Position numbers and translations under genes: made by a program
Shown: positions 10,176-53,818 of the stretch, one piece after another
How the letters are laid out: each line of letters opens with the position of its first letter
Numbering within the stretch: position 1 is the first letter of the stretch
The notes under the pieces: model-generated
Databases searched by the model: none
Seen by the model: only the letters and a program-made list of their open reading frames with translations
What the model was told of the DNA's origin: nothing
NCBI GenBank assembly: GCA_903939765.1
Contig: CAJAIK010000046.1
Coordinates: 1-56,272 of the forward strand
Direction: 5' to 3'
From: an uncultured Chlorobiaceae bacterium
Lineage (GTDB): Bacteria; Bacteroidota; Chlorobiia; Chlorobiales; Chlorobiaceae
DNA: 56,272 bases

Positions 10176-10287
10176 CCCTCTACCCATACAACTCATCTCT
10201 CCCCTGTTCGTTCGTCGTTCAAATCCGGTGGCAACCATCGGATAGCAGTGATTTTCATTGCTTAATGTCAAAGCGGCCAAGTTTTTT

Positions 10288-12288
10288 ATGCCACACAACG
10301 CCTTGGTGAAAAAAATAAAAGTCTGGTTTACGGTGATGCAGATCAGGCTTCTTACTCTTTCGCGCACCGCAAAAAAGGGAGTTGCCCTTATAGCTGATGC
10401 CTGTTCGGCTTTGCTCACCGTATGGCTTGTCTTTGTTTTACTCAAGGAAAGCTGGTCGCTGCCCGATGGGGGGCAGTGGCTGATTTACCTCTCGGCCCCG
10501 CTTCTTGCGCTGCCCATCTTTATTCGTTCAGGCCTCTATAATGCGGTCTTCCGGTATAGCGGTTTTGCCGCACTCAAGGCCGTCATGAATGCATGCATAA
10601 TGTACGGCATTCTTTTTTTTGCGGCCACCCTGTTTCTGCAAAAACCCGGCATGCCCCGTTTTATAGGGATTTTGCAACCGCTGCTGCTTTTCTTTACCGT
10701 CGGAGGCAGCCGAGCTCTGGTGCGCATGTGGCTGAATCTCTCTTCGGCTGAGCCATCGGGACAAAAAGGGGGGGAACGAATACTCATTTACGGCGCAGGC
10801 GCTGCAGGATTGCACATTGCTGGTGCCATAACGCACAGCCGTCAGTTTACCCTCGCCGGATTTCTTGATGACAATCCTCTTCTGCAGGGGCAGACCATCG
10901 ACGGTGTCATGGTATACAGCCCTGATGAAGTTGAGACGCTGGTTAAACGGAAAGCCATTACCAGCATACTTCTGGCTCTGCCCTCAGTTGCCCGCCGACG
11001 CCGTGAAGAAATATTCGACTCCCTTCATACCTTCGGAGTGCATATTCTCACCTTGCCGGGTATTGAAGCTCTTGCCGAAGGCCGGGTCTCAGTTTCCGAT
11101 ATCAAGGAAATCGATATTGAAGATTTGCTTGGCCGCGATCCGGTGCCCCCAGTTTCCAGGCTTTTAGGCCGCTGCATCAAGGGGAAGGTGGTTCTCGTTA
11201 CTGGCGCTGGCGGCAGCATCGGCAGTGAACTCTGCCGCCAGATTCTTTCTTTACACCCTTCAGCTCTTCTGCTTCTCGACCACTCGGAATTCAATTTGTT
11301 CACCATTCATCAGGAGCTTGAGAAGAGGGTGATTCAAGAGCAGAGTAGTGCAAATATTATTCCACTGCTCGGCAACGTCACCGATCAAAAGGCAATGGAA
11401 AAGATCTGCCGCAACTATAAGCCATCGACGCTCTATCATGCCGCAGCATACAAGCATGTGCCGATGGTTGAACGGAACCCTGTCGAAGGCCTGCGCAACA
11501 ATATTTTTGGAACACTGAGCATGGCGCGTGCCGCCTCTGAAAACGGAGTCGAAAACTTTGTCCTCATCAGCACAGACAAGGCTGTCCGGCCAACCAACAT
11601 CATGGGCGCCAGCAAAAGGATCTGCGAGCTGGTACTGCAGGCATTTGCCACAGAAGAGAGCAACACCTGCTTTTCGATGGTTCGCTTCGGCAATGTGCTT
11701 GGTTCAAGTGGTTCAGTCGTGCCTCTTTTTCGTCATCAAATCAAGGCTGGCGGTCCCGTCACCATCACCCACAAGGAGATCACCCGCTATTTTATGACCA
11801 TTCCCGAGGCGGCCCAGCTTGTCATTCAGGCGGGTGCCATGGCCAAAGGGGAAGATGTCTTTCTGCTCGACATGGGCGCTCCGGTAAAAATAGTCGATCT
11901 TGCCCGGCGCATGATAGAGCTTTCAGGCCTCAGCGTGCGTGATCGCCTCCATCCCGAAGGAGATATTGAAATAGTGGAAACTGCCCTTCGTCCCGGAGAA
12001 AAGCTCTTTGAAGAGCTCCTCATTGCCGGCAATCCCCAGCAAACAGAGCACCCCCAGATTTTCAAAGCTCATGAATACTTCTTTACCATGCAGGAACTGA
12101 TGGCAAAACTCACGGAACTTCAGCAGATCATGGAAACCGAGGATGATGCAGCAATCAAGGTATGCCTGCAGCGGCTCGTCAAAGGCTTTACTCCAGATGG
12201 AGAGAGCTCCCCAGCCCTGTCAAAAGAGAAGCATAACGGTGTTCCCGCAGTTTCGCAAGTTTCCCAACCACTTCCGGCATACGTATAA
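10288..12288 (+). CDS. Membrane nucleotide-sugar 4,6-dehydratase (PglF/WbpM/CapD type)
   Basis: About 666 residues. Four N-terminal membrane helices precede a first Rossmann domain ('ILIYGAGAAGLHIAGAI') and a second SDR domain with 'VLVTGAGGSIGSEL' (~301-314). The catalytic segment 'STDKAVRPTNIMGASK' (~428-443) has Met in place of the usual SDR Tyr, as in the PglF/WbpM/FlaA1 dehydratases that act on UDP-GlcNAc to give a 4-keto-6-deoxy sugar. TTG 10258 and ATG 10336 are alternative starts; none has a good ribosome binding site. With PglC, PglD and DegT proteins later in the locus it could begin a bacillosamine-like pathway. Confidence 0.9.
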   Translation: MPHNALVKKIKVWFTVMQIRLLTLSRTAKKGVALIADACSALLTVWLVFVLLKESWSLPDGGQWLIYLSAPLLALPIFIRSGLYNAVFRYSGFAALKAVMNACIMYGILFFAATLFLQKPGMPRFIGILQPLLLFFTVGGSRALVRMWLNLSSAEPSGQKGGERILIYGAGAAGLHIAGAITHSRQFTLAGFLDDNPLLQGQTIDGVMVYSPDEVETLVKRKAITSILLALPSVARRRREEIFDSLHTFGVHILTLPGIEALAEGRVSVSDIKEIDIEDLLGRDPVPPVSRLLGRCIKGKVVLVTGAGGSIGSELCRQILSLHPSALLLLDHSEFNLFTIHQELEKRVIQEQSSANIIPLLGNVTDQKAMEKICRNYKPSTLYHAAAYKHVPMVERNPVEGLRNNIFGTLSMARAASENGVENFVLISTDKAVRPTNIMGASKRICELVLQAFATEESNTCFSMVRFGNVLGSSGSVVPLFRHQIKAGGPVTITHKEITRYFMTIPEAAQLVIQAGAMAKGEDVFLLDMGAPVKIVDLARRMIELSGLSVRDRLHPEGDIEIVETALRPGEKLFEELLIAGNPQQTEHPQIFKAHEYFFTMQELMAKLTELQQIMETEDDAAIKVCLQRLVKGFTPDGESSPALSKEKHNGVPAVSQVSQPLPAYV

Positions 12289-21951: not shown

Positions 21952-23262
21952 ATGTTTACCATTGAGAACCTTCTGTATAGCATTTTTTTGCCGCTTAATA
22001 ATCCTCGTGCTGGTCTTAGAGTGGGCCGCTTGTATGCCGATCTTCAAAAAAGTCAATGGTACGATCACCGTGCTCTTGAGCAACTCCAGAATGCAAAAGT
22101 TAAGTGTTTGATGGAGTACGCAAGAAATAACGTCCCTTTTTATAAAGATTATAATGCTTGGGAAGGTAAAACAGATACGACCTTTAGGGAGACATTGGCA
22201 ACCTATCCTATTTTAAAAAAGGAAGATATTCGGGCCAATTCTTTGCATATGCATACTATCACCGGAATGCCTCGCGCTTGCATCGTTGCTACGACTGGAG
22301 GAACCACAGGTAAACCTATAGAGGTATGGCATAGCAGGAAAAATCGCGCATTGGTGGATGCGGCAACCTGGAGAGGTCGCTCTTGGGTTGGGATAAAGCC
22401 TTGGACGAGAGGAGTTAATGTGCAGTCATTCGGACGTGGTTCTTGGTATGGACGGTTACGGGTTCGATTGACTAATAAATGGATCATGGATGTTTTTGGG
22501 CAAACATACGCTGAAAAGTTACAAAGTGCAAAGGAGCTGTTACGGATTAGTCCAAAGTACCTGGAAGGATTTGTTTCGGAAACTTTGGCATTAGGTGATG
22601 CCTGTTATGCGAGTGGGGTACAAATTGATCGTGTATTAACCACAGGCGAAATGCTCTACCAACACAACCGAGACGAGATTAAGAGACTATATGGAGCTGA
22701 GGTATCTGTTTATTATGGATGCAATGAAATTGGTGCTATGGCTTTTGAGTGTGAGCACGGAAGCAAACATATTACAGACGAGCATGTTATCGTGGAGGTT
22801 GTAGATGAAAATGGTGTTCCTCAATGGGAAAAACCAGGAAGAATTCTTTTGACTGACCTGGATAACTACCTGACACCGTTTATTCGCTATGAAGTTGGAG
22901 ATATAGGCATATTAACACGCTCTTCATGCCCTTGCGGTCGAGAATTGACATTGCTTAAAGATCTCGAAGGGAGGACTCAGGATTTTATCATAAATGCGTC
23001 AGGCGATAAATTGAGCAGTTTGTTTTTTGCAGGAAGATTTAAGGATATGAAGCTCATCCATCGCATTCAGCTCGTCCAAAGAAGTCTTAACGAGATAGAC
23101 CTTCTTTATGAAGGGTCGTCTGAGGTTGCTGAAAGTGAACTGGAAGAGATTATTTCTGAAATACATAATCGACTAGGTCCTGAAATGCAAGTGTCAATAA
23201 AGCAGGTCGGGCAATTGATATATACAGGTCGGGGCAAATGTAGGCTTATCATAAATCTTTAA
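21952..23262 (+). CDS. Adenylate-forming enzyme, CapK/PaaK family
   Basis: 436 residues related to phenylacetate-CoA ligase and CapK. Visible motifs are the P-loop-like 'ATTGGTTGKPIEVWHS' (~112-127), 'YYGCNEIGAMAFECEHG', and 'LDNYLTPFIRYEVGDIG' with the conserved Asp, followed by a Cys pair ('SSCPCGR'). CapK-type proteins are common in capsule loci, where a role in activating an acyl or amino-acid substituent is suspected but rarely proven. It stands 162 bases after a glycosyltransferase and before the polymerase. Confidence 0.85.
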   Translation: MFTIENLLYSIFLPLNNPRAGLRVGRLYADLQKSQWYDHRALEQLQNAKVKCLMEYARNNVPFYKDYNAWEGKTDTTFRETLATYPILKKEDIRANSLHMHTITGMPRACIVATTGGTTGKPIEVWHSRKNRALVDAATWRGRSWVGIKPWTRGVNVQSFGRGSWYGRLRVRLTNKWIMDVFGQTYAEKLQSAKELLRISPKYLEGFVSETLALGDACYASGVQIDRVLTTGEMLYQHNRDEIKRLYGAEVSVYYGCNEIGAMAFECEHGSKHITDEHVIVEVVDENGVPQWEKPGRILLTDLDNYLTPFIRYEVGDIGILTRSSCPCGRELTLLKDLEGRTQDFIINASGDKLSSLFFAGRFKDMKLIHRIQLVQRSLNEIDLLYEGSSEVAESELEEIISEIHNRLGPEMQVSIKQVGQLIYTGRGKCRLIINL

Positions 23263-34767: not shown

Positions 34768-35403
34768 ATGAAATCAGACTTAACAATTCTTGTTCTTGCG
34801 CCTCATACAGATGATGGAGAATTTGGATGTGGAGGAACAATTGCTCGTTATGCAGAAGGGGGGGCACGCGTTGTGTATGTAGCTTTTTCAGCAGCAGAAC
34901 AGTCGGTTTCACTAAACCTGCCGCGCGACATACTGCGGACTGAGGTGCGAAATGCGACTGCAACTCTTGGTATTAGAGATGATGACTGTCTTGTATTAGA
35001 CTTTGAGGTTCGTCGCTTTCCGGAATTTCGGCAACAGATTTTAGATAAAATGATTGACTTGGGACATCTGTATAATCCTGATATGGTATTTTTACCAAGT
35101 AGCAACGATACTCATCAAGACCACCATACTATAGCGCAAGAGGGTTTTCGTGCTTTTAAACGGACAACAATGTTGGGTTATGAAGTGCCTTGGAATAATC
35201 TTGATTTTCGAACCTGCTGCTTTGTTGATATAAATAAGAATTGTTTAGACAAAAAAATAAGGGCGCTTAAAATGTATAAATCACAGCAAGACAGGATTTA
35301 TTCCAATACTGAATTTATTCGCAGCTTGGCTGTGACCCGTGGTGTTCAGATTAGTAAACGTTATGCAGAAGTTTTTGAAGTGGTGCGATGGGTAATAAAT
35401 TGA
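34768..35403 (+). CDS. PIG-L family N-deacetylase
   Basis: 211 residues. The zinc site is visible as 'PHTDDGEFGCGG' (12-23; the usual PHPDD with Thr for Pro) and 'NDTHQDHH' (113-120). PIG-L enzymes deacetylate N-acetylhexosamines or related small substrates. In this locus it would act on a sugar nucleotide or lipid-linked sugar, perhaps freeing an amino group for another acyl group. The gene is AT-rich and follows the relic by 24 bases. Confidence 0.88.
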   Translation: MKSDLTILVLAPHTDDGEFGCGGTIARYAEGGARVVYVAFSAAEQSVSLNLPRDILRTEVRNATATLGIRDDDCLVLDFEVRRFPEFRQQILDKMIDLGHLYNPDMVFLPSSNDTHQDHHTIAQEGFRAFKRTTMLGYEVPWNNLDFRTCCFVDINKNCLDKKIRALKMYKSQQDRIYSNTEFIRSLAVTRGVQISKRYAEVFEVVRWVIN

Positions 35404-37673: not shown

Positions 37674-38285
37674 ATGGGGAAGCGTTTTTTCGATATAGTT
37701 CTAACCATTCCCGGTTTTCTTTTGATTTTACCACTGCTGCTGATTCTTGCTCTTTTGGTCAGAATATTTAATGGCAGCCCACTTTTGTTTTCTCAATTGC
37801 GTCCCGGTCAGAACACTAATCCGTTTCGCATATACAAGTTTCGGACGATGACTAATGCGAGAGATGCGGCTGGAAATCTTTTGCGTGACAATGAACGGCT
37901 TACATCATTAGGAAGATTTCTTCGTTCCACCAGTCTTGATGAATTTCCAGCCCTTTTGAATGTCCTCAAGGGTGATATGAGCCTTGTGGGCCCGCGTCCG
38001 CTTTTGATGGAGTATCTGCCGCGCTACTCTGCGGAGCAGAATCGACGTCATGAAGTGCGGCCCGGTATGACCGGATGGGCACAGGTGAACGGTCGCAATG
38101 CCATCAGTTGGGAGGAAAAATTCAAGCTGGATGTCTGGTATGTGGATAATTGGTCGATCTGGCTGGATATCAGGATACTTGCATGGACCGTGATCAATGT
38201 TGTGTTACGCAAAGGTATAAACCACAATGCAACGGAAACAATGCCGTTTTTTAATGGAGCAGGGTCTTTGGATGGTAAGGGTTAG
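37674..38285 (+). CDS. pglC: Initiating phosphoglycosyl transferase, PglC/WcaJ C-terminal type
   Basis: 203 residues. One re-entrant membrane helix (~8-30) is followed by the bacterial sugar transferase domain: '[10 protein letters not shown]', the catalytic Asp-Glu in '[26 protein letters not shown]', and '[15 protein letters not shown]'. The monotopic PglC form moves a sugar phosphate from its UDP carrier onto undecaprenyl phosphate, starting each repeat unit. It is 6 bases before a PglD-like gene, the same order as in bacillosamine loci. Confidence 0.92.
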
Positions 38286-38291
38286 TCAACG

Positions 38292-38927
38292 ATGAAGAAG
38301 AAACGACTCGCTATTGTTGGCGCAAGCGGTCACGGAAAGGTTGTTGCCGACGCTGCCTTAAAGGGCGGATGGGATGAGATCCTTTTTTTTGATGATGCAT
38401 GGCCAGAACTTACAGAAGTTGGGGTGTGGCAGGTTATTGGCAATACCCGACAGCTCCAGGAACAAGCAGTTTGTTTTGATGGAGCGGTCGTTGCAATTGG
38501 TAATAATATGATAAGGCTTGACAAGCAGTATGAGCTTGAACAAACAGGGATTCAACTTGTTACGATTATTCATCCTTCAGCGACAGTAAGCCCCTATTCA
38601 GTGATTGGCAAGGGAAGTGTGGTGTTTGCCGGTGCAGTCGTTAATGCTTTTGCAACAATTGGTATAGGTTGTATCATCAATACGGGCTCAACTATTGATC
38701 ATGATTGTCTGCTTGCGGATGGCGTTCATGTGAGCCCCGGAGCTCATTTAGGCGGGAATGTGCATATAGGAAAGGCTGCATGGGTTGGTATAGGATCTTC
38801 TGTGAAGCAGTTCATTCAGATTGGAGAAAATGTAGTTGTAGGGGCTGGTGCTGCAGTTGTCAATGATATTGAGTCAGGGTTGACCGTTATTGGTGTTCCT
38901 GCACGCGCAATGATGAAGAGATTATAG
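38292..38927 (+). CDS. pglD: PglD/NeuD-like sugar O/N-acyltransferase
   Basis: 211 residues. An N-terminal Rossmann-like piece ('LAIVGASGHGKVVADAA') is followed by hexapeptide repeats of a left-handed beta helix ('IGKGSVVFAGAVVNAFATIG', 'GVHVSPGAHLGGNVHIGKAA'), with the catalytic His in 'STIDHDCLLADGVH'. PglD acetylates the 4-amino group of UDP-4-amino-sugars using acetyl-CoA. Its neighbours PglC and, further on, a DegT aminotransferase support a role in a bacillosamine or 4-amido-sugar pathway. Confidence 0.88.
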   Translation: MKKKRLAIVGASGHGKVVADAALKGGWDEILFFDDAWPELTEVGVWQVIGNTRQLQEQAVCFDGAVVAIGNNMIRLDKQYELEQTGIQLVTIIHPSATVSPYSVIGKGSVVFAGAVVNAFATIGIGCIINTGSTIDHDCLLADGVHVSPGAHLGGNVHIGKAAWVGIGSSVKQFIQIGENVVVGAGAAVVNDIESGLTVIGVPARAMMKRL

Positions 38928-38955: not shown

Positions 38956-39231
38956 ATGTGCCTACTTTTAATGAGTGAGAAATTGATTATGAAAGAAAAA
39001 ATTATCAACATAATCATTGAAATTGCGTCAGAATCAGGCTGGGACATTCTCACCAACCTCAATGACGATACGGTTTTGCTTGAGAGCGGGCTGGATTCAT
39101 TAGGTTTTGCTACTCTCGTGGCTCGTTTAGAAGAGGAACTGCTGTATGACCCATTTTCCATGATGGATGAGCCTGTTTATCCGAGAACGTTGGGAGAATT
39201 TGTCAAGATTTATGAACAATATGCGTCATGA
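38956..39231 (+). CDS. Acyl carrier protein
   Basis: 91 residues. The phosphopantetheine attachment serine is Ser48 in 'LLESGLDSLGFATLV'. The protein is acidic and helical like other ACPs, distinct from the housekeeping AcpP. An AAGG lies 5 bases before ATG 38956; ATG 38971 and 38989 are alternatives. The last four bases overlap the ligase start (ATGA), so the carrier and its likely loading enzyme are coupled. Confidence 0.88.
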   Translation: MCLLLMSEKLIMKEKIINIIIEIASESGWDILTNLNDDTVLLESGLDSLGFATLVARLEEELLYDPFSMMDEPVYPRTLGEFVKIYEQYAS

Positions 39232-40553
39232 ATGGTGAGACGTTAGGAGATATTGTACGGAGTTTTTCTGGTGATCATAATGTTTTAGTAACTCAGTCAG
39301 CAATACTCTCTGTTGATCACCTGCAGAAACAAGCCGAAGATCTTTACAGAAGATCGTCGGTTACATCGAGGAGCCGGATCGCTCTTTGTGGTTTATCTCC
39401 TTCTGATTTTATCACATCTCTTGTGGCATTTGATGGCAGGGTTGATGCGATGCTTTTTCTCCCAGCATCTCTGGATGATATATCAAAAGAGCGGCTTGCT
39501 GCTTCTGCCGGTTGCACCCATTATATCGATACTGAAAACATCGTCGAAGTTTCAAGAGGGCTCGAAGAGTGCCGTTCTTCAGAAGCAGACGCAACGCAAT
39601 GGTTACTCCCTACATCAGGAACAACTGGCAGACCGAAGTTGATCGGGCATACTTTGGCCTCATTATCCTGCTCTGTTAAAAGAGATACTGAAAAAGGGCG
39701 CTGTTTTGTATGGGGATTACTGTATGACCCAAGCTGTTTTGCCGGTATTCAGGTTGTTCTTCAAGCTTTGTACTCAGGATCGCTCTTGCATGTTTCGGAG
39801 TCGGTTGATTTTGAATCGCAAATAGAGGGGTTCGTGCAGAATCACGTTAACGCTTTGTCGGCAACGCCCTCACTGTGGCGAAAATTGTTAATGGATGGCA
39901 GAATTAAGGCCTGCCGATTACGACAGATTACTCTTGGCGGGGAAATTGCTGATCAACATATTCTGGATGGTTTAAAACGCCATTTCAATGGGGCAAGGAT
40001 TGTTCATATATACGCATCGACCGAAGCAGGAACGGCATTCTCAGTTCATGATGGCCGAGCTGGATTTCCGGCGATCTGGATTCAAAACAAAAGCGGACCG
40101 CTTCCATTGAGTATTCGTGGTGATGGGCACTTGCTGGTCAAACCCCCCATACTTTCTGATGGTCTTGAAATAGTGCAAAGGCTTGATTCCGATGGCTATT
40201 TGGACACGGAGGATATGGTGCGGGTCGAGGGTGATCGGGTTATTTTTCTTGGTCGTGCTTCAGGCGCAATAAATGTCGGCGGCAACAAGGTTGCTCCTGA
40301 ATACATTGAGAGCCATATTCGTGCAGTGAATGGAGTCGTTGATGTTCGTGTTTTTGGAAAGAAGAGCAGCATGATCGGGCAGATTGTTGCGGCCGAAATT
40401 GTGCCTCATCCAGGGTTGGAGGTGAAACGGTTACGGGGCGAAATTCTTCACTATTGCCGAGTAAACATGGAGAGCTGGCAAACTCCTGGCATCGTCTCTT
40501 TCGTACATGAGCTCAAGGAAAATTCAGCAGGAAAACGTGAACGGTTGACTTGA
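39228..40553 (+). CDS. AMP-dependent acyl ligase (acyl-ACP synthetase-like)
   Basis: 441 residues of the ANL superfamily. The P-loop is 'TSGTTGRPK' (129-137), the adenine region 'IYASTEAG', the hinge Asp region 'YLDTEDMVRVEGDRVIFLGR', and the C-terminal lysine motif 'NSAGKRERL'. It is shorter than typical ligases, with a reduced N-terminal part. It lies between an ACP and a ketoreductase, so I infer that it loads an acyl group onto that ACP. Start ATG 39228 overlaps the ACP stop. Confidence 0.87.
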   Translation: MNGETLGDIVRSFSGDHNVLVTQSAILSVDHLQKQAEDLYRRSSVTSRSRIALCGLSPSDFITSLVAFDGRVDAMLFLPASLDDISKERLAASAGCTHYIDTENIVEVSRGLEECRSSEADATQWLLPTSGTTGRPKLIGHTLASLSCSVKRDTEKGRCFVWGLLYDPSCFAGIQVVLQALYSGSLLHVSESVDFESQIEGFVQNHVNALSATPSLWRKLLMDGRIKACRLRQITLGGEIADQHILDGLKRHFNGARIVHIYASTEAGTAFSVHDGRAGFPAIWIQNKSGPLPLSIRGDGHLLVKPPILSDGLEIVQRLDSDGYLDTEDMVRVEGDRVIFLGRASGAINVGGNKVAPEYIESHIRAVNGVVDVRVFGKKSSMIGQIVAAEIVPHPGLEVKRLRGEILHYCRVNMESWQTPGIVSFVHELKENSAGKRERLT

Positions 40554-41275
40554 TGAAAATAGTTCTTGTAACGGGCGCAACGCGTGGCTTAGGGCTTGCA
40601 GTTGCTCGTCAATGTATTTCGGACGGGTATAAAGTCGTTGCTGTTGGCCGCACCATGACAGAGGAACTGACCTTTTTAATGCAGCAATATCCTGACCATA
40701 TCGTTTTCGAGCGATATGATTTCTCCGATACGGCAGGCATTCATTCGTTAGCTGTTCAGATCACGAAAAAATATGGGCGCCCATGGGGTTTGGTGAACAA
40801 TGCGGCTATTGGCCGTGATGGCGTGCTTGCTACGTTGCACGAACGGGATATTGCTGAATTGATAAAAATAAATATAGAAGCGCCTGTTTTACTTACCAAG
40901 TACATTTTGCGTTCCATGCTCATGAACAGAGGCGGCAGGATCATCAACGTCTCTTCTATTATCGCATCGACAGGATTCAATGGGCTGTCGGTTTATGGCG
41001 CTACAAAAGCTGCCTTGGCTGGGTTCACGAAATCACTGGCTCGAGAGGTTGGTAAAGCTGGCATTACTGTAAATACCTTGGCCCCTGGTTATATGGAAAC
41101 TGAGATGACATCAGCGCTTCAGGGAGATAAGCTCGAATCTATCAAGCGCCGCTCTCCTTTAGGGCATTTAGCTACAGTTGAGGACGCGGCTTATGCAGTA
41201 AGTTATCTTTTAAGTGAAAAATCTTTCAGTGTAACAGGAACAACCATTACCGTTGATGCAGGAAGTTCCTGCTGA
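40553..41275 (+). CDS. SDR-family 3-oxoacyl-ACP reductase-like protein
   Basis: 240 residues from ATG 40553, which shares one base with the ligase stop (TGATG). The NADP-binding 'VTGATRGLGLAVAR', 'LVNNAAIGRDG' and the catalytic set Ser-Tyr-Lys in 'INVSSIIAS' and 'SVYGATKAAL' match FabG-type reductases. The C-terminal 'ITVDAGSS' is also typical. Next to an ACP and an acyl ligase it may reduce a 3-ketoacyl-ACP to a 3-hydroxyacyl-ACP; a sugar substrate is the alternative. Confidence 0.88.
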   Translation: MKIVLVTGATRGLGLAVARQCISDGYKVVAVGRTMTEELTFLMQQYPDHIVFERYDFSDTAGIHSLAVQITKKYGRPWGLVNNAAIGRDGVLATLHERDIAELIKINIEAPVLLTKYILRSMLMNRGGRIINVSSIIASTGFNGLSVYGATKAALAGFTKSLAREVGKAGITVNTLAPGYMETEMTSALQGDKLESIKRRSPLGHLATVEDAAYAVSYLLSEKSFSVTGTTITVDAGSSC

Positions 41276-41282
41276 AAATTAT

Positions 41283-41918
41283 ATGCCTGATCAGATACAA
41301 CACGCGGCAAACCCATTTTATAAAGGCTATTTCAAGAGTGAAGAACTTCTTGGAATGGGCTTTAAATCTGTTGGTGAAAATGTAAAAATTGCCAAAAACT
41401 GTACTCTTGTTGGGCTTGACAAGATTTCGTTAGGAAATAATATTCAAATTGATGAGAACGTTTTTATCGCAGCAAATTCAGGGCCTCTGAGTATAGGGGA
41501 TTATGTCCATATTGGAGGAGGATGCCATTTGAATTGCGCAGGAGGAATAACGCTCTCTGATTTTAGCGGTTTGTCACAAGGTGTTCGAATTTATTCTGTT
41601 ACGGATGATTATACCGGCTTTTCATTAACAAATGCTACCGTTCCGAAAAAGTTTAAAAATGTTAAAATAGCATCGGTTTTTTTAGGAAAGCATGTTCTCA
41701 TTGGATCAGGTTGTGTGATTTTACCGGGAGTTCAAATTGGTATTGGTTCATCGGTTGGAGCTCTGTCCCTTGTCAATATTTCACTGAAAGAGTGGGGGGT
41801 ATATATTGGCGTTCCTGCAAAACGAATCAAGGCTCGATCCCAAAAATTATTGGAATTGGAACAGACGCTTTTACTGGAAGCGAAGATGTCAAAAGAGTAC
41901 TCATTAACAACTCTTTGA
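41283..41918 (+). CDS. Left-handed beta-helix acyltransferase
   Basis: 211 residues from ATG 41283 (ATG 41256 would overlap the reductase). Hexapeptide repeats are seen in 'IGDYVHIGGGCHLNCAGGIT' and 'LGKHVLIGSGCVILPGVQIG', ending 'WGVYIGVPAKRIKAR', which is usual for WbbJ/Lac-type sugar acyltransferases. As the last gene of the ACP-ligase-reductase set it is the natural candidate to move the acyl group from ACP to a sugar. That use is inference; acetyl-CoA could also be the donor. Confidence 0.85.
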   Translation: MPDQIQHAANPFYKGYFKSEELLGMGFKSVGENVKIAKNCTLVGLDKISLGNNIQIDENVFIAANSGPLSIGDYVHIGGGCHLNCAGGITLSDFSGLSQGVRIYSVTDDYTGFSLTNATVPKKFKNVKIASVFLGKHVLIGSGCVILPGVQIGIGSSVGALSLVNISLKEWGVYIGVPAKRIKARSQKLLELEQTLLLEAKMSKEYSLTTL

Positions 41919-42136: not shown

Positions 42137-43375
42137 ATGCTTAATACTTCGTTTCCCCCTTGGCCATCCTACACTCAGGAAGAAGTTGATGCTGTATCCA
42201 GAGTTCTTTTTTCAAACAAGGTCAATTACTGGACCGGGCAGGAGTGCCGGGAATTTGAACATGAGTTTGCTGCGTGGGCAGGGTGCCGCCATGCCATAGC
42301 ACTGGCGAACGGAACAGTCGCGCTTGAGTTGGCGCTGGAGGCTCTTGGGATCGGGCCTGATGATGAGGTCATTGTTCCGAGCTATACCTTTCTTGCCTCT
42401 GCCAGTGCTGTGGTAATGCGGGGTGCCGTTCCGGTGATAGCTGATGTGGACGCTGATTCCATGACTCTGACGGCGGATACTATTGCTGCAAAGATGACTT
42501 TAAGAACGAAAGGGATTATTGCGGTTCACCTGGTTGGCTATCCGTGCGACATGGATCCGATTATGGAGCTGGCAGAGCGGCATAATCTCAAGGTTGTTGA
42601 GGATTGTGCGCAGGCTCATGGTGCAAGGTATAAAGGCCGGTCGGTGGGCACGATCGGGCATATTGGTGCCTGGAGTTTTTGCCAGGACAAAATTATGACG
42701 ACGGGCGGAGAGGGTGGGATGGTAACCACCAATGATTCGGCCCTGTGGTCGAGAATGTGGTCGTATAAAGATCATGGCAAATGCTGGGAAGCGGTTTATG
42801 AGCGCGAGCATCAGCCAGGGTTTCACTGGCTTCATGAGTCGTTTGGTACAAACTGGAGGATGACCGAGTTGCAAGGGGTAATAGGCCGTTTACAGTTGCA
42901 GCAGATGAAGAAGTGGACGGCAAAGCGACGGGCGAACGCTGCCGCCATCTGGAAGGCTGCACGCTTTATCCCGGGATTACGGGTTCCGATTCTTGCTGAT
43001 TGGGCGGAACATGCGGCGTATAAATGTTATGTTTTTGTAGAGCCGACGGTGTTGCGAGAAGGTTGGAACCGGGACATGATTATGAATGCCATTAATGGCC
43101 GGGGAGTTCCCTGCTGTAGCGGAATTTGCCCGGAGATTTACCTCGAAAAGGCATTTGAAAATACCGGATGGCGACCTGCAGAACGGTTTCCGGTAGCGAA
43201 AAAGCTTGGCGAGACGGCCTTGATGTTTCTTGTTCATCCTACACTTGAGAAAGCGCACATCGATAAAACCTGCAAGGTGCTGCATGAGGTGATGAAAGAA
43301 GCGGCAGCCAAGCTGAAGAAACCACGTTATTCAAGAATAAATATTTTAAGCGCTCCACATGAATTTGTTCGGTAA
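42137..43375 (+). CDS. DegT/DnrJ/EryC1 sugar aminotransferase
   Basis: 412 residues. The PLP lysine is Lys185 in 'AWSFCQDKIMTTGGEGGMV', with 'ANGTVALELALEAL' and 'VVEDCAQAHGARYKG' upstream. These enzymes add an amino group from glutamate to a keto sugar nucleotide. It is intact, unlike the two DegT relics at 16388 and 34460. With PglF-, PglC- and PglD-like proteins in the locus it is a good candidate for the PglE-type step, although its C-terminus differs from the WbpE type. Confidence 0.9.
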   Translation: MLNTSFPPWPSYTQEEVDAVSRVLFSNKVNYWTGQECREFEHEFAAWAGCRHAIALANGTVALELALEALGIGPDDEVIVPSYTFLASASAVVMRGAVPVIADVDADSMTLTADTIAAKMTLRTKGIIAVHLVGYPCDMDPIMELAERHNLKVVEDCAQAHGARYKGRSVGTIGHIGAWSFCQDKIMTTGGEGGMVTTNDSALWSRMWSYKDHGKCWEAVYEREHQPGFHWLHESFGTNWRMTELQGVIGRLQLQQMKKWTAKRRANAAAIWKAARFIPGLRVPILADWAEHAAYKCYVFVEPTVLREGWNRDMIMNAINGRGVPCCSGICPEIYLEKAFENTGWRPAERFPVAKKLGETALMFLVHPTLEKAHIDKTCKVLHEVMKEAAAKLKKPRYSRINILSAPHEFVR

Positions 43376-44421: not shown

Positions 44422-45111
44422 CTACTTCGTCCCCATAACTAACTTCCGATCACTATTGGGAAGCATCTCCAGAAATCCTTTGATGTAGTCAATCTGAGCT
44501 GTTGCAGGCTCATCTGGCGCAGAGCGTTCACTGGACACCCTTACCATCAGGTTGTCGGGCATGTCGCCCAGAATATGTTGTGCCAAACGATTAAGCCGGT
44601 CAAAACGTAACGCAACGAGCCGTGACTGACCAGTAGAAATATCAGTTTTCCCTCCAGTTATCCTCCAGTACATCACATCTTCGATTTGTTTGCCGTGATT
44701 CGCCGTAAAGGCAATCAGATCCTGTTTTCCTGCCTTTGTTGTGACTGTCGCAGACTTGGGTGGCGTAACAGTAAACCCTCCCGCCTGATAGCACATTTGC
44801 TGTGAATGACCGGCACGACGGATACCGTCACGACTCCAGGTCATCACCACTATTACCTTTTTTCCATCACCACGCTGAAAAGCCTGTGCGGCAACAAGAT
44901 CGTAGTCACCTTTCATCGATTCGTTCCAGCGCGGATCGACAAACGCACTTGCTATTGCCGTCCATCCATCGGGATGCACGTTTACCATCCTTTGAAGGTC
45001 AGGCATTGCTCCTTTATCGCTCTGATTTTTTCTCACTTCGACCAAGAGCACGGCTGAGCCGAGCAAGAGTGTTATGATAATGGCCAGAGCGTTATACCTG
45101 GTTATCCGCAT
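44422..45111 (-). CDS. epsI: EpsI-family exosortase partner protein (DUF3485)
   Basis: 229 residues. A membrane anchor (~7-25) is followed by the EpsI domain with 'GWTAIASAFVDPRWNESMKG', 'RAGHSQQMCYQAGGFTV' and 'DVMYWRITGG'. EpsI occurs beside exosortases or fused to their C-terminus; it probably works in processing or polymer coupling at the membrane. The start overlaps the exosortase end by 20 bases. It is the last gene of the minus-strand operon and converges with the radical SAM gene. Confidence 0.88.
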   Translation of the reverse strand: MRITRYNALAIIITLLLGSAVLLVEVRKNQSDKGAMPDLQRMVNVHPDGWTAIASAFVDPRWNESMKGDYDLVAAQAFQRGDGKKVIVVMTWSRDGIRRAGHSQQMCYQAGGFTVTPPKSATVTTKAGKQDLIAFTANHGKQIEDVMYWRITGGKTDISTGQSRLVALRFDRLNRLAQHILGDMPDNLMVRVSSERSAPDEPATAQIDYIKGFLEMLPNSDRKLVMGTK

Positions 45112-45967
45112 GTGCAGTTATTTCTGTTCGCTTTTTGCCTGTATAGGAATTGAATAAAAGATTATCGATCAGTGCAAGTGTGGCAAGTGCAACCACGAAG
45201 GCCAAAATGCCGGTAGTATTATGAAAAAGCCCTTGAGCAAAGCCGTCACCAACATACTGCGTTGCCAGTACCAGCAGGATTACCCGGAACAGGTTGGTGA
45301 TTACCGCAACAGGCAGAACGCAGGCCACCAAAACCGTGATATGCCAAGGCTTGCGCTTGACGCCTTGACGCAGATAGAGAACAGAGAGTGCGGTCAATGA
45401 AAATATTGAGTTCATGCCGGAGCAGGCCTTGGTCACTTCTGCGCTGTATGGACCGAAATAGAGAATGACGCCGTCAGAGATAACCGGAAAAAGCGTTGCA
45501 CTGATGATTTTGGCCGATGTCGCGGCAATGGCCAGAGCCAATTGAGAGGAAAAGAGGTCAGGAGCAATCCAGCCGATAAAAACAATAACGGTTCCGGCAA
45601 GCACCATAAAAAACGCGGATTTCCTGTATTGACGGGGAGAGAGTGCGGCAATCAGGCCGGCAGCCATGAAAAACAGGCTCCAGATTTCCACAATCATCAC
45701 TGGGTAAAGACGGCCTGTGATATAGAGCAGCCACCCGGCAAACAAAAAAACTGAGCCAGTCAGCAGATCACCGGTTCCCTCCCCGCGCAGCGAAGAGATG
45801 ATGCTGCTTCGTTCAATCCATAACACCAGAGCAATAATAACAAACAGCAACGAGTCATCGTTGTTGCCAAAAGAGGGGTTGAAGATGGTATAGCGTGCTG
45901 CTGCATGCACAGTAATCAGTGCAAACAGCAGCCAGGGGAGCCATGAGGCATGAAATCGAATACTCAT
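45092..45967 (-). CDS. Exosortase (transpeptidase-like membrane protease)
   Basis: 291 residues from ATG 45967, with about eight membrane helices. The catalytic triad is seen: Cys182 in 'TKACSGMNS', Arg228 in 'NLFRVILL' and His249 in 'FHNTTGILAF'. Exosortases cut PEP-CTERM proteins at the membrane and are thought to pass them to a surface target. The ATG shares one base with the upstream stop (TAATG). The frame is open further upstream, but those 68 residues lie inside the EpsD-like gene and are not exosortase-like. Subfamily is not assigned. Confidence 0.92.
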   Translation of the reverse strand: MSIRFHASWLPWLLFALITVHAAARYTIFNPSFGNNDDSLLFVIIALVLWIERSSIISSLRGEGTGDLLTGSVFLFAGWLLYITGRLYPVMIVEIWSLFFMAAGLIAALSPRQYRKSAFFMVLAGTVIVFIGWIAPDLFSSQLALAIAATSAKIISATLFPVISDGVILYFGPYSAEVTKACSGMNSIFSLTALSVLYLRQGVKRKPWHITVLVACVLPVAVITNLFRVILLVLATQYVGDGFAQGLFHNTTGILAFVVALATLALIDNLLFNSYTGKKRTEITAHADNQV

Positions 45968-47337
45968 TAACTGACGATTCGGATAGTTACAAGTACCCCG
46001 GCACCCAATAAAAATCCGGCGAAAAGCATAACCGGCACCCAGCGAAACGTCCGCATCTTCTCTGCCCGGCGGTGTAAACCAAAGCGGGCATAGAGATGGC
46101 TTGCACCTGTGCCGATAAGAAGCCCGGCGATGATAGAGAACGCTATCATCCAGAATGAAAGAATATTCCAAATCAGCAGCAGATCATAGCCGATCAGAAC
46201 CAGACTTAACCCTGCAACAAGAAAAAGAGTCAGTTGAACGAGAAGCGAGACCTGGTGTTTATGGTAATTAAATGTTGCGGAGTTATTGGCTGGAGCGCTC
46301 CGTTTATGCACTGGCCAAAGTTTTGGCAGCCAGAGAGTTCCCGTGAGAAAAGACTTTGAAGCAAAGAGCAGCAGCATGGCTGCCGTAAATGAGAGAGCGA
46401 GCGATACTGCTCCGGCAATTTGATGACGAAGTATGCTTTGCGCTCTTGCCGGATCAGGCATGGGCAATGCAATCCTCTGCAGTTTGTTTTTTGTTTCAGG
46501 TGCATCGGGTTTATACTCGCCGAAATAGGTGATTTTGGACGCATCAACTACAGCCCTCATTTTGTTTGAGAACGCTACAGCTCGTTGCTGGTTATTGAGG
46601 AGATTGGCGGCAGTCTGCTCAGCCGCAAGACCTTCAAGAGGAACGGGTACCACCGTGTGCAGCATCAGAATCATGGAAAACTTGTCTTGAACCCGCGCAA
46701 TAACAGGTACATTTGCTTTTGAGTTGCTCAACACCGTAACAATGGCAGGCTCAATCTGGTCGGTCGTAAGGGTTCGAGTTGCCCGTCTAAACGGTATCTT
46801 TTGTGCGTTAACCATATCAAGCAACGCGGCCAAGGAAGCTCCTTTGGCGGATGAAGCATTCAATGAGTGAAGAAACGGAACATTAACGCCTTGCATAATA
46901 ATCTCGTCGTACACCAGCAGTTTTCTCTGGGCAAAGAGGTTGGGATTTTTCGAAATGATCGTTTTGACTGTTTCCGGAGCAACCGCCTTGGCGGTTGAGG
47001 CAATCTCCCCTTCGGCAAATCCTGCAAGCACCCTGCGACGGGCATTGTGCATGGCAATGAGGAAGTCAGGTGATTGGTCGAGCTTCATTTTTGTTGCTTG
47101 CTGGGCGAGGAGTTCAGCACGGACCAATCCTGCAAGAATGGTTCGGCGCTGGTTACGAGCTACCGCCTCATCGGCACTTGGGGTGGCGGTGTGCTGATAG
47201 AGAAAATAGACTTCACGCTGGGTAATCTCAACGCCATTGACAACAGCAGCGACTCGACTATCAATACCATTGTCCTCTTCTGAGGAGCAGCCTGCAATGG
47301 TAAACGCAAGAAGCAGAATAAATAATACTTGTCTCAT
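45967..47337 (-). CDS. EpsD-family lipoprotein with C-terminal membrane domain
   Basis: 456 residues. A lipoprotein signal ends at Cys17 ('LAFTIAGCSSE'). Residues ~27-270 resemble the EpsD peptidyl-prolyl isomerase family of PEP-CTERM loci, with the SurA-like start 'VAAVVNGVEITQREVYFLY'. After a linker, four hydrophobic segments follow (about 306-326, 364-384, 388-410, 432-452), which is not usual for EpsD. Isomerase residues are not obvious, so a chaperone role is as likely. It sits 2 bases after the PEP-CTERM gene and overlaps the exosortase by one. Confidence 0.8.
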   Translation of the reverse strand: MRQVLFILLLAFTIAGCSSEEDNGIDSRVAAVVNGVEITQREVYFLYQHTATPSADEAVARNQRRTILAGLVRAELLAQQATKMKLDQSPDFLIAMHNARRRVLAGFAEGEIASTAKAVAPETVKTIISKNPNLFAQRKLLVYDEIIMQGVNVPFLHSLNASSAKGASLAALLDMVNAQKIPFRRATRTLTTDQIEPAIVTVLSNSKANVPVIARVQDKFSMILMLHTVVPVPLEGLAAEQTAANLLNNQQRAVAFSNKMRAVVDASKITYFGEYKPDAPETKNKLQRIALPMPDPARAQSILRHQIAGAVSLALSFTAAMLLLFASKSFLTGTLWLPKLWPVHKRSAPANNSATFNYHKHQVSLLVQLTLFLVAGLSLVLIGYDLLLIWNILSFWMIAFSIIAGLLIGTGASHLYARFGLHRRAEKMRTFRWVPVMLFAGFLLGAGVLVTIRIVS

Positions 47338-47339
47338 GG

Positions 47340-48134
47340 TTAAGCGACAGAGTTGTCAGCACTATTTTTCTTCCTTAACTTCATTGAAGATATAAGAACA
47401 CTGCCGACACCGATCAGCAGCATGCTGGCAGGCTCAGGTGCGGCTGAATTCGTGATCTGAATGCCATTGACTATCGCGTTTTTTCCAGCAACAGCAGACG
47501 AATATTCAATCGTCAAATTACCTCCAGCATCGGCCCTGAACGTTTCCATCATATAATTCTGGCCCGTCAAAAAAGTACTATTTGTCGCATTTGATGTACC
47601 TGCTTGCGTATAAGTCGTTGGATCGCCAACCTTATTCGGGCCCGTCAACTGCAATATCGAACCATTATCCGCTTTGTTCCCTTGAGTAAGCACATAAACA
47701 TCATAATGTGTGTACGCGGCAAGCCCGGAAATAGTAAAGCTTCCGGTTTCACCAGAGACCACATAATTATAACTATTCATCAGGTTTTTATACTCACCAA
47801 GACCGCTACCATAAAAACCTGATGTGGCTTTCGCAAGAGTAGTGATACCTTCAGAACTAAAAGTTAAAGTAGCCGGAGAAGAAGCTCCTGATGTCAACAT
47901 GAGAGTTGTAGAAACACCTGCAGAGAGATCAGGCTCTAAAATATTCCAAACATCACCGATGTTTCCAACCTGTACCGATCCATCATATGTTACCGCTCCC
48001 GAATAGTTATAAAGAGTATTCGAAGTATTCGGAGTGAACTTGATGTCAATCAAAGATGCTACCGTTGAGGCGTGCAATGGTGGACTCACTGCCATCATTA
48101 CCACCGCCGTAAGCGAATAAATAATGCGTTTCAT
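47340..48134 (-). CDS. PEP-CTERM protein, likely substrate of the adjacent exosortase
   Basis: 264 residues with an N-terminal signal peptide (~1-23, 'AVVMMAVSPPLHAS') and a C-terminal PEP-CTERM tripartite signal: 'PEPAS' at 233-237, a hydrophobic helix ('MLLIGVGSVLISSM'), and basic 'KLRKK'. The middle is Ser/Thr/Gly-rich beta structure with no recognised enzyme domain, fitting an extracellular or surface protein. A GGGAG lies upstream of ATG 48134. It is the first gene of the operon with EpsD-like, exosortase and EpsI. Confidence 0.9.
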   Translation of the reverse strand: MKRIIYSLTAVVMMAVSPPLHASTVASLIDIKFTPNTSNTLYNYSGAVTYDGSVQVGNIGDVWNILEPDLSAGVSTTLMLTSGASSPATLTFSSEGITTLAKATSGFYGSGLGEYKNLMNSYNYVVSGETGSFTISGLAAYTHYDVYVLTQGNKADNGSILQLTGPNKVGDPTTYTQAGTSNATNSTFLTGQNYMMETFRADAGGNLTIEYSSAVAGKNAIVNGIQITNSAAPEPASMLLIGVGSVLISSMKLRKKNSADNSVA

Positions 48135-52566: not shown

Positions 52567-53157
52567 ATGACTATTCATGCCTTACCCGAAGTTATCAAAG
52601 ATGGCTATGAAATTCATGAGTGGCGGCATGCATCAGCGATTCTTGCCAGTGATTTTCCTGATGAACTATCGGATATTTGTGACGTGTTAGGTCGTTTTCG
52701 TTTGTGTAAAACATTTTTAACAACTCCTGGAGGTAGAAAGTCGAAGATCTCAGAGGGAATTGATTCAGAACTGTATCAGAAAGGATGGGTAGAGAGGAAG
52801 TTTGATACTGCTTTTGTTGTTGATGGAAACTCCACAGCAAGTCCAACACATGCTGTGGATTGTTATAAGAATAAGATTGCGTTGGAAATTGAATGGAATA
52901 ACAAAGACCCGTTTTTTGATCGTGATCTGAACAATTTCAGGTTATTGTTTGAACTACGGGTAATTTCAGTTGGTATTATTGTGACGAGGTGTGATGCACT
53001 TCAGAATATTTTCGATGCAATTGGCAGGGGGAGCTCTTTTGGCTCTTCCACAACGCATATGAGCAAACTGCTGCCAAAAATTGAAGGTGGCGGGGGCGGT
53101 GGTTGTCCGATACTTGTTTTTGGAATTAAAGAGCGTTTATACGATGAGAATTGTTAG
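52567..53157 (+). CDS. Type II restriction endonuclease, BglII/BstYI-like
   Basis: 196 residues, as in the BglII family. The PD-(D/E)xK-like active site is read as Asp98, Glu107 and Glu109 in 'HAVDCYKNKIALEIEWNNKD', followed by the family block 'PFFDRDLNNFRLLFELRVIS' and 'GIIVTRCDALQNIFDAIG'. BglII and BstYI cut sites around GATC (AGATCT, RGATCY); the exact target here is unknown. ATG 52567 starts the gene. Its end overlaps the methyltransferase start by 14 bases, so the pair is a compact restriction-modification unit. Confidence 0.88.
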   Translation: MTIHALPEVIKDGYEIHEWRHASAILASDFPDELSDICDVLGRFRLCKTFLTTPGGRKSKISEGIDSELYQKGWVERKFDTAFVVDGNSTASPTHAVDCYKNKIALEIEWNNKDPFFDRDLNNFRLLFELRVISVGIIVTRCDALQNIFDAIGRGSSFGSSTTHMSKLLPKIEGGGGGGCPILVFGIKERLYDENC

Positions 53158-53818
53158 TGTTACTGAGCCTACCGCGGCGGAGGATCTGTTGCTGAAAACC
53201 GGCAATCGTTACTCTACCGTTCTGGCAGATCCCCCGTGGCAGTTTCAGAACCGCACAGGAAAGATGGCGCCTGAACACAAGAGGCTTTTACGGTATCCCA
53301 CTATGGAGATCAAGGAGATCATGGAGCTGCCTGTGCCAAAACTTGCCGCAGCCAGTTCCCATCTTTACCTGTGGGTGCCCAATGCACTTTTGAAAGAAGG
53401 GTTGCAAGTGATGGATGCCTGGGGGTTTACCTATAAGACGAACTTGGTTTGGCATAAAATCCGCAAGGATGGTGGTTCTGATGGGCGGGGAGTTGGATTT
53501 TATTTCAGAAATGTCACGGAACTGGTTTTATTCGGAGTTCGGGGCAGCATGAGAACGCTTCAGCCTGGTCGAACACAGGTCAATCTCTTTGCAACCAGAA
53601 AACGAGAGCATTCTCGCAAGCCGGATGAGTTTTATGATTTGATTGAGGAGTGTTCACCGGGCCCCTACCTTGAACTTTTTGCAAGATTTAAGCGACAGGG
53701 ATGGCATCAGTGGGGTAACGAAGATGTAGAACAGAACTCATTGTTGAATGTTGCTCTTCGAAACGGGCACACCGATTTTTCTGAAAAGCAGATACGTTTA
53801 CTTGAAACAACAGGATAG
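53144..53818 (+). CDS. DNA N6-adenine methyltransferase, MT-A70 family
   Basis: 224 residues from ATG 53144. Catalytic 'DPPW' is at 29-32 ('TVLADPPWQFQNRTG'). 'HLYLWVPNALLKEGLQVMDA', 'GFTYKTNLVWHKI' and 'EHSRKPDEFYDLIEECSPGP' are typical of the MT-A70/IME4-like bacterial enzymes that methylate adenine N6. It overlaps the restriction gene by 14 bases and presumably protects its site. An upstream start at 53081 would lie deep in the restriction gene and is rejected. Confidence 0.9.
   Translation: MRIVSVTEPTAAEDLLLKTGNRYSTVLADPPWQFQNRTGKMAPEHKRLLRYPTMEIKEIMELPVPKLAAASSHLYLWVPNALLKEGLQVMDAWGFTYKTNLVWHKIRKDGGSDGRGVGFYFRNVTELVLFGVRGSMRTLQPGRTQVNLFATRKREHSRKPDEFYDLIEECSPGPYLELFARFKRQGWHQWGNEDVEQNSLLNVALRNGHTDFSEKQIRLLETTG

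Follow-up and report, generated by a model that had tools for sequence, protein, structure and literature searches.

Here, we describe a four-gene acylation module in a polysaccharide locus of an uncultured Chlorobiaceae bacterium. The window, i.e., the whole stretch of 56,272 nucleotides that was analyzed, is from contig CAJAIK010000046.1 of assembly GCA_903939765.1, and the host genome measures 2.98 Mb and is 99.4% complete. Four consecutive genes on the + strand encode an acyl carrier protein (ACP), an ANL ligase, a FabG-like short-chain reductase (SDR) and a left-handed beta-helix (LbH) acyltransferase, with the Pfam classes PP-binding, AMP-binding plus AMP-binding_C, adh_short/adh_short_C2 and Hexapep, respectively. 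They are flanked by a PglC-type transferase and PglD on one side and by a DegT aminotransferase on the other (Table 1). We lean toward the view that this module makes a short, non-acetyl hydroxyacyl group and transfers it onto an amino sugar of a surface glycan.

The four genes are tightly packed. The ACP stop codon overlaps the ligase ATG (ATGA at 39228), the ligase stop codon shares bases with the SDR start codon (TGATG at 40551-40555), and the SDR and LbH genes overlap by 23 nt if LbH starts at TTG 41253 or are separated by 10 nt if it starts at ATG 41286; a gap of 218 bp then precedes the DegT gene. Coordinates, strand, Pfam classes and junctions thus bear out the initial annotation, which had described four overlapping or nearly touching genes between PglD and a DegT aminotransferase. 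It had also started the ACP gene at 38956; the gene stands, but ACP relatives begin with MKEKIINII, and the start is therefore likely at 38989. All four genes are under purifying selection, with dN/dS values between the window and its relatives of 0.135-0.174 for ACP, 0.09-0.21 for the ligase, 0.08-0.12 for SDR and 0.14-0.21 for LbH. Because these values are low and the gene order is repeated in distant genomes, the gene set is not a product of chance.

Table 1. Module genes and partner genes in the window
Feature	Position	Strand	Remarks
Dedicated acyl carrier protein (ACP), 80 aa	38989..39231	+	alternative annotated start 38956
ANL (AMP-forming) acid--carrier ligase, 441 aa	39228..40553	+	PF00501 + PF13193
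FabG-like short-chain reductase (SDR)	40553..41275	+	PF13561/PF00106, ATG at 40553
AntD-like left-handed beta-helix (LbH) N-acyltransferase	41253..41918	+	start TTG 41253 or ATG 41286
DegT 4-aminotransferase, predicted to form UDP-QuiNAc4N (partner)	42137..43375	+	identity to Pcryo_0638
PglD/NeuD N-acetyltransferase (partner; dispensable in relatives)	38292..38927	+	TIGR03570
PglC-type polyprenyl-phosphate sugar transferase (partner)	37674..38285	+	PF02397, 220 bits
Membrane-anchored PglF/WbpM-type UDP-GlcNAc 4,6-dehydratase	10258..12288	+	PF02719, 405 bits

The first three genes form a genuine, portable cassette. Relatives of the ligase (E<=1e-20) were found in 17 of 394 genomes from the phylum, its own genome counted, and we compared the surroundings of the ligases in the other 16 genomes together with four plasmid loci. 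The initial annotation had proposed a neighborhood search for the four-gene order; ACP, ligase and SDR are kept together in 19 of these 20 loci, and the fourth gene, the likely transferase, varies. The trio is found in the Chlorobiaceae loci L027-L032, in less closely related members of the phylum (L033-L035 and L037-L040), in L041 and L042, where SDR lies upstream of the ligase, and in Alphaproteobacteria plasmids of Qingshengfaniella, Haematobacter and Azospirillum. In L036 (9600-10955), a ligase of the same family has neither ACP nor SDR next to it. In a plasmid collection, two independent searches agreed: each of the 14 records that matched the ligase best also gave an SDR match at E<1e-40. 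As for the fourth position, AntD-like LbHs lie beside the cassette in L027-L031, other LbHs adjoin it in Qingshengfaniella, Haematobacter and L039, and GNAT-like proteins lie near it in L032 and L034 (by Pfam) and in L033, L035 and L040 (by our own reading only). A 3-ketoacyl-ACP synthase III (KASIII) with an intact C-H-N condensing triad is encoded near the cassette in L032, which alone among the 16 genome loci has such a gene, and in Azospirillum; the triad is intact in all three of these proteins. A PglC-type transferase is encoded near the module in L028-L032.

Some of these loci have features of their own. On the Azospirillum plasmids (L025 4501-12873 and L026 4545-12937), the cassette lies between the pseudaminic acid synthase gene pseI and a flagellin gene, together with genes for KASIII, another carrier-like protein and an alpha/beta hydrolase; this arrangement suggests an N-hydroxyacyl pseudaminic acid on flagellin. 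After the cassette, the same-genus locus L032 (3431-7117) encodes a GNAT-like protein, a KASIII with the C-H-N triad, another SDR and a PglD-like transferase, and so represents a ketosynthase version of the pathway. A PIG-L-type deacetylase is encoded adjacent to the cassette or one gene off it in L027 (18077-18823), L032 (462-1133) and L034 (11529-12209), and also in the window at 34768; it may remove an N-acetyl group ahead of re-acylation.

The acceptor is a well-supported part of the proposed pathway. DegT is 64% identical over 384 aa (E 3.6e-166) to Pcryo_0638 (PDB 7l7x), a proven UDP-4-keto-6-deoxy-GlcNAc 4-aminotransferase that makes UDP-QuiNAc4N (PMC8040287). Based on this identity, the acceptor amine is very probably N4 of UDP-QuiNAc4N. 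Together with DegT as the 4-aminotransferase of the UDP-QuiNAc4N (bacillosamine) pathway, the window encodes a PglF-type UDP-GlcNAc 4,6-dehydratase. This protein has the motif STDK...M-GASK, in which Met takes the place of the usual Tyr, presumably belongs to the retaining class and is the probable source of the 4-keto sugar for DegT, in which case it would serve QuiNAc4N synthesis. PglD scores 215.7 bits against TIGR03570 (cut-off 160.8). However, genome-wide searches gave no PglD match at E<=1e-15 in two relatives, G291 and G036, which are each ~100% complete and retain the PglC-type transferase, ACP, ligase, SDR, LbH and DegT. PglD as sole acylator of the DegT product is therefore rejected for these two genomes, in which LbH is likely the N-acylator; among the genetic arguments for the role of LbH, this is the strongest. 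One relative that carries the module without PglD is Chlorobaculum sp. 24CR (contig NZ_SDGU01000023.1).

LbH has a Hexapep (PF00132) match and is 42% identical (E 9.6e-43, residues 19-207) to PDB 3vbi, with the series 3vbi-3vbp at E about 1e-42. These structures were deposited under the name galactoside O-acetyltransferase; we take them to be AntD of Bacillus cereus, the anthrose N-acyltransferase described by Kubiak and Holden, an LbH enzyme whose acceptor is the C4 amine of a 4-amino-4,6-dideoxy sugar and whose donor carries a hydroxyacyl group. The similarity spans the full length, and the Ser and Asp varied in the deposited mutants are conserved as S108 and D118 in LbH and its five close relatives. 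The donor of AntD is a coenzyme A (CoA) thioester and its sugar nucleotide is dTDP-linked; to our knowledge, the anthrose operon has no ACP, ligase and SDR trio. Among 86 Chlorobiaceae genomes, seven encode the ligase and six of these seven also encode an LbH that either is the window protein itself or is close to it (64-87% identity). All six close LbHs lie together with the ligase, so that these co-occurrences are physically linked and not independent events. The seventh genome (L032) has the GNAT-like protein, KASIII and PglD-like protein in place of LbH. Altogether, the DegT identity, the AntD-like LbH and the absence of PglD from two module-bearing relatives support well the earlier proposal that an acyl group is attached to an amino sugar.

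The remaining proteins of the module are consistent with loading and reduction of an acid on a dedicated carrier. ACP matches PF00550 with 25.6 bits (cut-off 20.8), has its phosphopantetheine Ser in a GLDSLG motif that is conserved among relatives, and is one of only two proteins in the genome for which a PP-binding match was found. The ligase exceeds the cut-offs for both PF00501 and PF13193, and its A3 motif TSGTTGRPK and A10 Lys436 are invariant or nearly so. Among solved structures, its profile matches best, all at low similarity, the adenylation (A) domains of nonribosomal peptide synthetases (NRPSs), MenE and DltA; because summed scores favor multi-domain NRPS chains, this ranking is no claim of membership. 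Ala172 aligns with the D of the FDG motif in an A domain of linear gramicidin synthetase, which we take to be the amino anchor site of amino acid-loading domains, and is Ala in 18/18 ligases. Thus, the ligase probably activates an acid other than an alpha-amino acid, and amino acid loading as by DltA is disfavored. SDR has the motifs YGATK (YxxxK) and TGATRGLG (TGxxxGLG), scores 196 bits against TIGR01830, which is under the cut-off of 298, and has MupS (4yxf) as its best PDB relative; such likeness to FabG and MupS does not decide between 2-oxoacyl and 3-oxoacyl thioester specificity.

Which acid does the ligase load without a ketosynthase? This is the central question raised by the module. 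First, in the 99.4% complete genome, no match over cut-off was found for Thiolase_C or for 3HCDH_N (3-hydroxyacyl-CoA dehydrogenase), and the same searches were positive in most control genomes. The usual pool of acetoacetyl-CoA and 3-hydroxybutyryl-CoA thus looks absent, which would well justify a dedicated acyl supply, and 3-hydroxybutyryl-CoA of the polyhydroxybutyrate type is disfavored as a donor. Second, there is no ketosynthase at the module locus, as the initial annotation had stated; the genome search finds one KASIII, on another contig, ~2.5 kb from the second ACP, with which it presumably forms a fatty-acid set. The term self-contained, as used earlier, is therefore too strong, since the locus shows no clear source of a 3-oxo group. 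Third, the FabG-like SDR and the C-H-N KASIIIs that Azospirillum and L032 encode next to the cassette make a 3-hydroxyacyl group the first choice; in those loci at least, the KASIIIs point to 3-oxo chemistry, and a CerJ-like acyltransferase function is disfavored for them by their intact triads. Our lead candidate for the group that is loaded and transferred is accordingly 3-hydroxybutyryl, which we put forward tentatively. The 3-hydroxyacyl group named in the initial annotation is in this way a plausible candidate, with a 2-hydroxyacyl group as the less probable alternative.

The main rival, and a serious one although we consider it unlikely, is that the module works as a stand-alone version of an A-ketoreductase (KR)-carrier unit of the depsipeptide type. 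In depsipeptide synthetases, such modules reduce loaded 2-oxo acids on the carrier. By analogy, the ligase would load an alpha-keto acid (e.g., pyruvate, 2-oxobutyrate or oxaloacetate), SDR would reduce it to a 2-hydroxyacyl group, and LbH would attach this group to the 4-amine. This rival ranks first among the alternatives because it can do without both a ketosynthase and a thiolase, consistent with the missing thiolase. The ligase fits as well: NRPS A domains and DltA are among its best matches in solved structures, MenE follows closely, and the invariant Ala in place of the amino-anchoring Asp suits an acid without an alpha-amino group. Moreover, Chlorobi have abundant 2-oxo acids from the reverse tricarboxylic acid cycle, and the N-acyl group of Vibrio cholerae O1 is itself a 2-hydroxy acid (2,4-dihydroxybutyrate). 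However, SDR is nearest to the beta-ketoacyl reductases FabG and MupS, and a condensing KASIII adjoins the cassette in Azospirillum and L032. A broader reading, which we regard as conceivable yet doubtful, is that ACP, ligase and SDR would be a hydroxyacyl-loading cassette for sugars of the surface and the flagellum, portable across phyla, i.e., a trans-acting equivalent, in three genes, of the depsipeptide module that loads and reduces a keto acid and works with varied partners (AntD-like LbH, GNAT-like protein, KASIII), so that glycans would gain N-acyl groups without either a ketosynthase or an acyl-CoA pool.

Less likely still is that ACP is charged with malonate by the ligase or FabD, that acetoacetyl-ACP arises when the housekeeping FabH condenses this malonyl-ACP and acetyl-CoA, and that SDR yields 3-hydroxybutyryl-ACP. 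The genome has a FabH-type KASIII available, the cassettes of Azospirillum and L032 include KASIIIs with the full triad, and Pseudomonas syringae employs ACP, KASIII and KR. Nevertheless, with KASIII in just one of 16 genome loci, many lineages would need a FabH that tolerates a strongly divergent ACP, and ligase similarity at the level of MatB was not found. Finally, it is quite improbable that LbH is a conventional N- or O-acetyltransferase that depends on acetyl-CoA and that ACP, ligase and SDR serve another product of the locus (e.g., a lipid or acyl cap): enzymes of the broad LbH family are often acetyl-CoA dependent, AntD-like LbHs occur without the cassette and the cassette occurs without a close LbH in other phyla, but in Chlorobiaceae the four genes overlap or abut, every close LbH accompanies a ligase, and AntD, as the closest solved relative, is an N-acyltransferase for a hydroxyacyl group.

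Several points weigh against a hydroxyacyl transfer module. With neither a local ketosynthase nor a thiolase, the pathway lacks an evident origin for a 3-oxoacyl group, and the acid of the ligase is a candidate only. The window genome also has PglD, and acetylation alone could serve the sugar. AntD-like LbHs (43-49% identity) are encoded beside or near other DegT genes in two Chlorobiaceae genomes that lack the ligase, so that likeness to AntD alone is no proof of a hydroxyacyl donor. AlphaFold models from four-sequence alignments reached a mean pLDDT of 42 for the ligase and 51 for LbH, values too low for the models to be informative. Lastly, the glycan of the organism is here a prediction from its genes.

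Taking both sides together, we suggest the following model for hydroxyacyl transfer. The PglF-like dehydratase and DegT, by strong homology, would turn UDP-GlcNAc into UDP-QuiNAc4N. ACP, as its motif predicts, would be phosphopantetheinylated, and the ligase, given its motifs and conserved adjacency, would adenylate a small non-amino carboxylic acid and load it onto ACP. SDR would then reduce the keto group of the carrier-bound chain, and LbH, as suggested by homology and by the loss of PglD in relatives, would pass the acyl group to the C4 amine of UDP-QuiNAc4N. Subsequently, the adjacent PglC-type transferase could move the acylated sugar onto the lipid carrier and so start the exopolysaccharide repeat. 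In genomes that possess PglD, this enzyme may act as an alternative acetylator of the same amine.

Parts of this model have precedents. In the viosamine island of P. syringae pv. tabaci, acp, vioS (KASIII), vioR, vioB and vioA give N-(3-hydroxybutyryl)-2-O-methylviosamine, and a vioR mutant lacks the modified sugar (PMC3927599). There, as proposed here, the C4 amine of a dideoxy sugar receives its hydroxyacyl group through the action of a dedicated ACP, a reductase, an acyltransferase and a 4-aminotransferase; the module has the counterparts, i.e., an ACP with an intact phosphopantetheine serine, a VioR-like SDR (3-oxoacyl-ACP reductase) with its catalytic motif, a C4 aminotransferase (DegT) and a sugar N-acyltransferase (LbH). 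By contrast, the island has KASIII (VioS), no ANL ligase, dTDP-viosamine and a flagellin glycan, whereas the window has a ligase, UDP-QuiNAc4N as predicted nucleotide sugar, a putative exopolysaccharide and no KASIII in the module, the only one found in the genome being on the other contig. In the O-antigen locus of V. cholerae O1, wbeKLMNO (rfbKLMNO) encode a carrier, an ANL ligase and tetronate genes, the amino group of a 4-amino sugar is acylated with a small hydroxy acid, i.e., 2,4-dihydroxybutyrate, and the ligase WbeL is required for normal O antigen (PMC3441752, PMC12208996). The carrier and ligase recur in our module; however, V. cholerae has two other oxidoreductases, WbeM and WbeN, in place of which the module has the FabG-like SDR only. 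We take WbeM to be an iron alcohol dehydrogenase and WbeN to be LuxC-like. The A domain without amino-anchoring Asp is, in addition, a feature expected of depsipeptide-like A-KR-carrier units.

Further likenesses are found in other loci. In Aeromonas group II flagellin islands (98 strains), orf1-3 encode an ACP, a 3-oxoacyl-ACP reductase and an AMP-dependent synthetase, the trio is carried together with luxE and luxC, and the genes listed include no ketosynthase (PMC7874193). The order ACP-KR-ANL, the downstream LuxE/LuxC and the pseudaminic acid context differ from the window. The PglF/PglE/PglD/PglC pathway and Pcryo_0638/0637 share nucleotide sugar and aminotransferase chemistry with the window (PMC8040287), which differs from this bacillosamine-type pathway in the additional acyl supply and second N-acyltransferase, and in that two relatives lack PglD. 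For the acyltransferases QhbA/QhbB of Acinetobacter KL1, UDP-QuiNAc4N with acetyl or 3-hydroxybutyryl at N4 is predicted, and a carrier-ligase-reductase cassette is not mentioned in the portion of that report considered here (PMC3628348). In the literature searched, the exact four-gene module was not found in O-antigen loci. The initial annotation was only partly right in not knowing such a compact route as characterized, since V. cholerae O1 and P. syringae are genetically characterized and the Aeromonas trio has been described. From these precedents, the principle is already known; the new element is a ligase in place of a ketosynthase combined with an AntD-like transferase on UDP-QuiNAc4N.

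In 4-amino sugars, the N-acyl group determines serotype and phage-receptor properties, and wbeL controls phage sensitivity in V. cholerae O1 (PMC3441752). If our model is correct, a conserved ligase-based cassette would make non-acetyl N-acyl groups predictable from gene order in many uncharacterized glycans, and would provide a few carrier-based enzymes with which UDP-sugars bearing acyl groups of choice could be prepared.

Three further observations concern the rest of the window. A second putative ligase, PaaK/CapK-like by eye and with no trusted Pfam match, is encoded in the same locus at 21952-23262. Adjoining the polysaccharide locus on the - strand (44422-48134) is an exosortase cluster with an EpsI-type protein, an exosortase (PF09721), an EpsD-type peptidyl-prolyl isomerase and a secreted protein with, by eye, a PEP-CTERM-like tail; an exosortase is also encoded near the acylation module in relatives L027-L031. 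At 52567-53818, a BglII-family restriction endonuclease gene (PF09195) overlaps an MT-A70 methyltransferase gene (PF05063), a probable compact restriction-modification pair.

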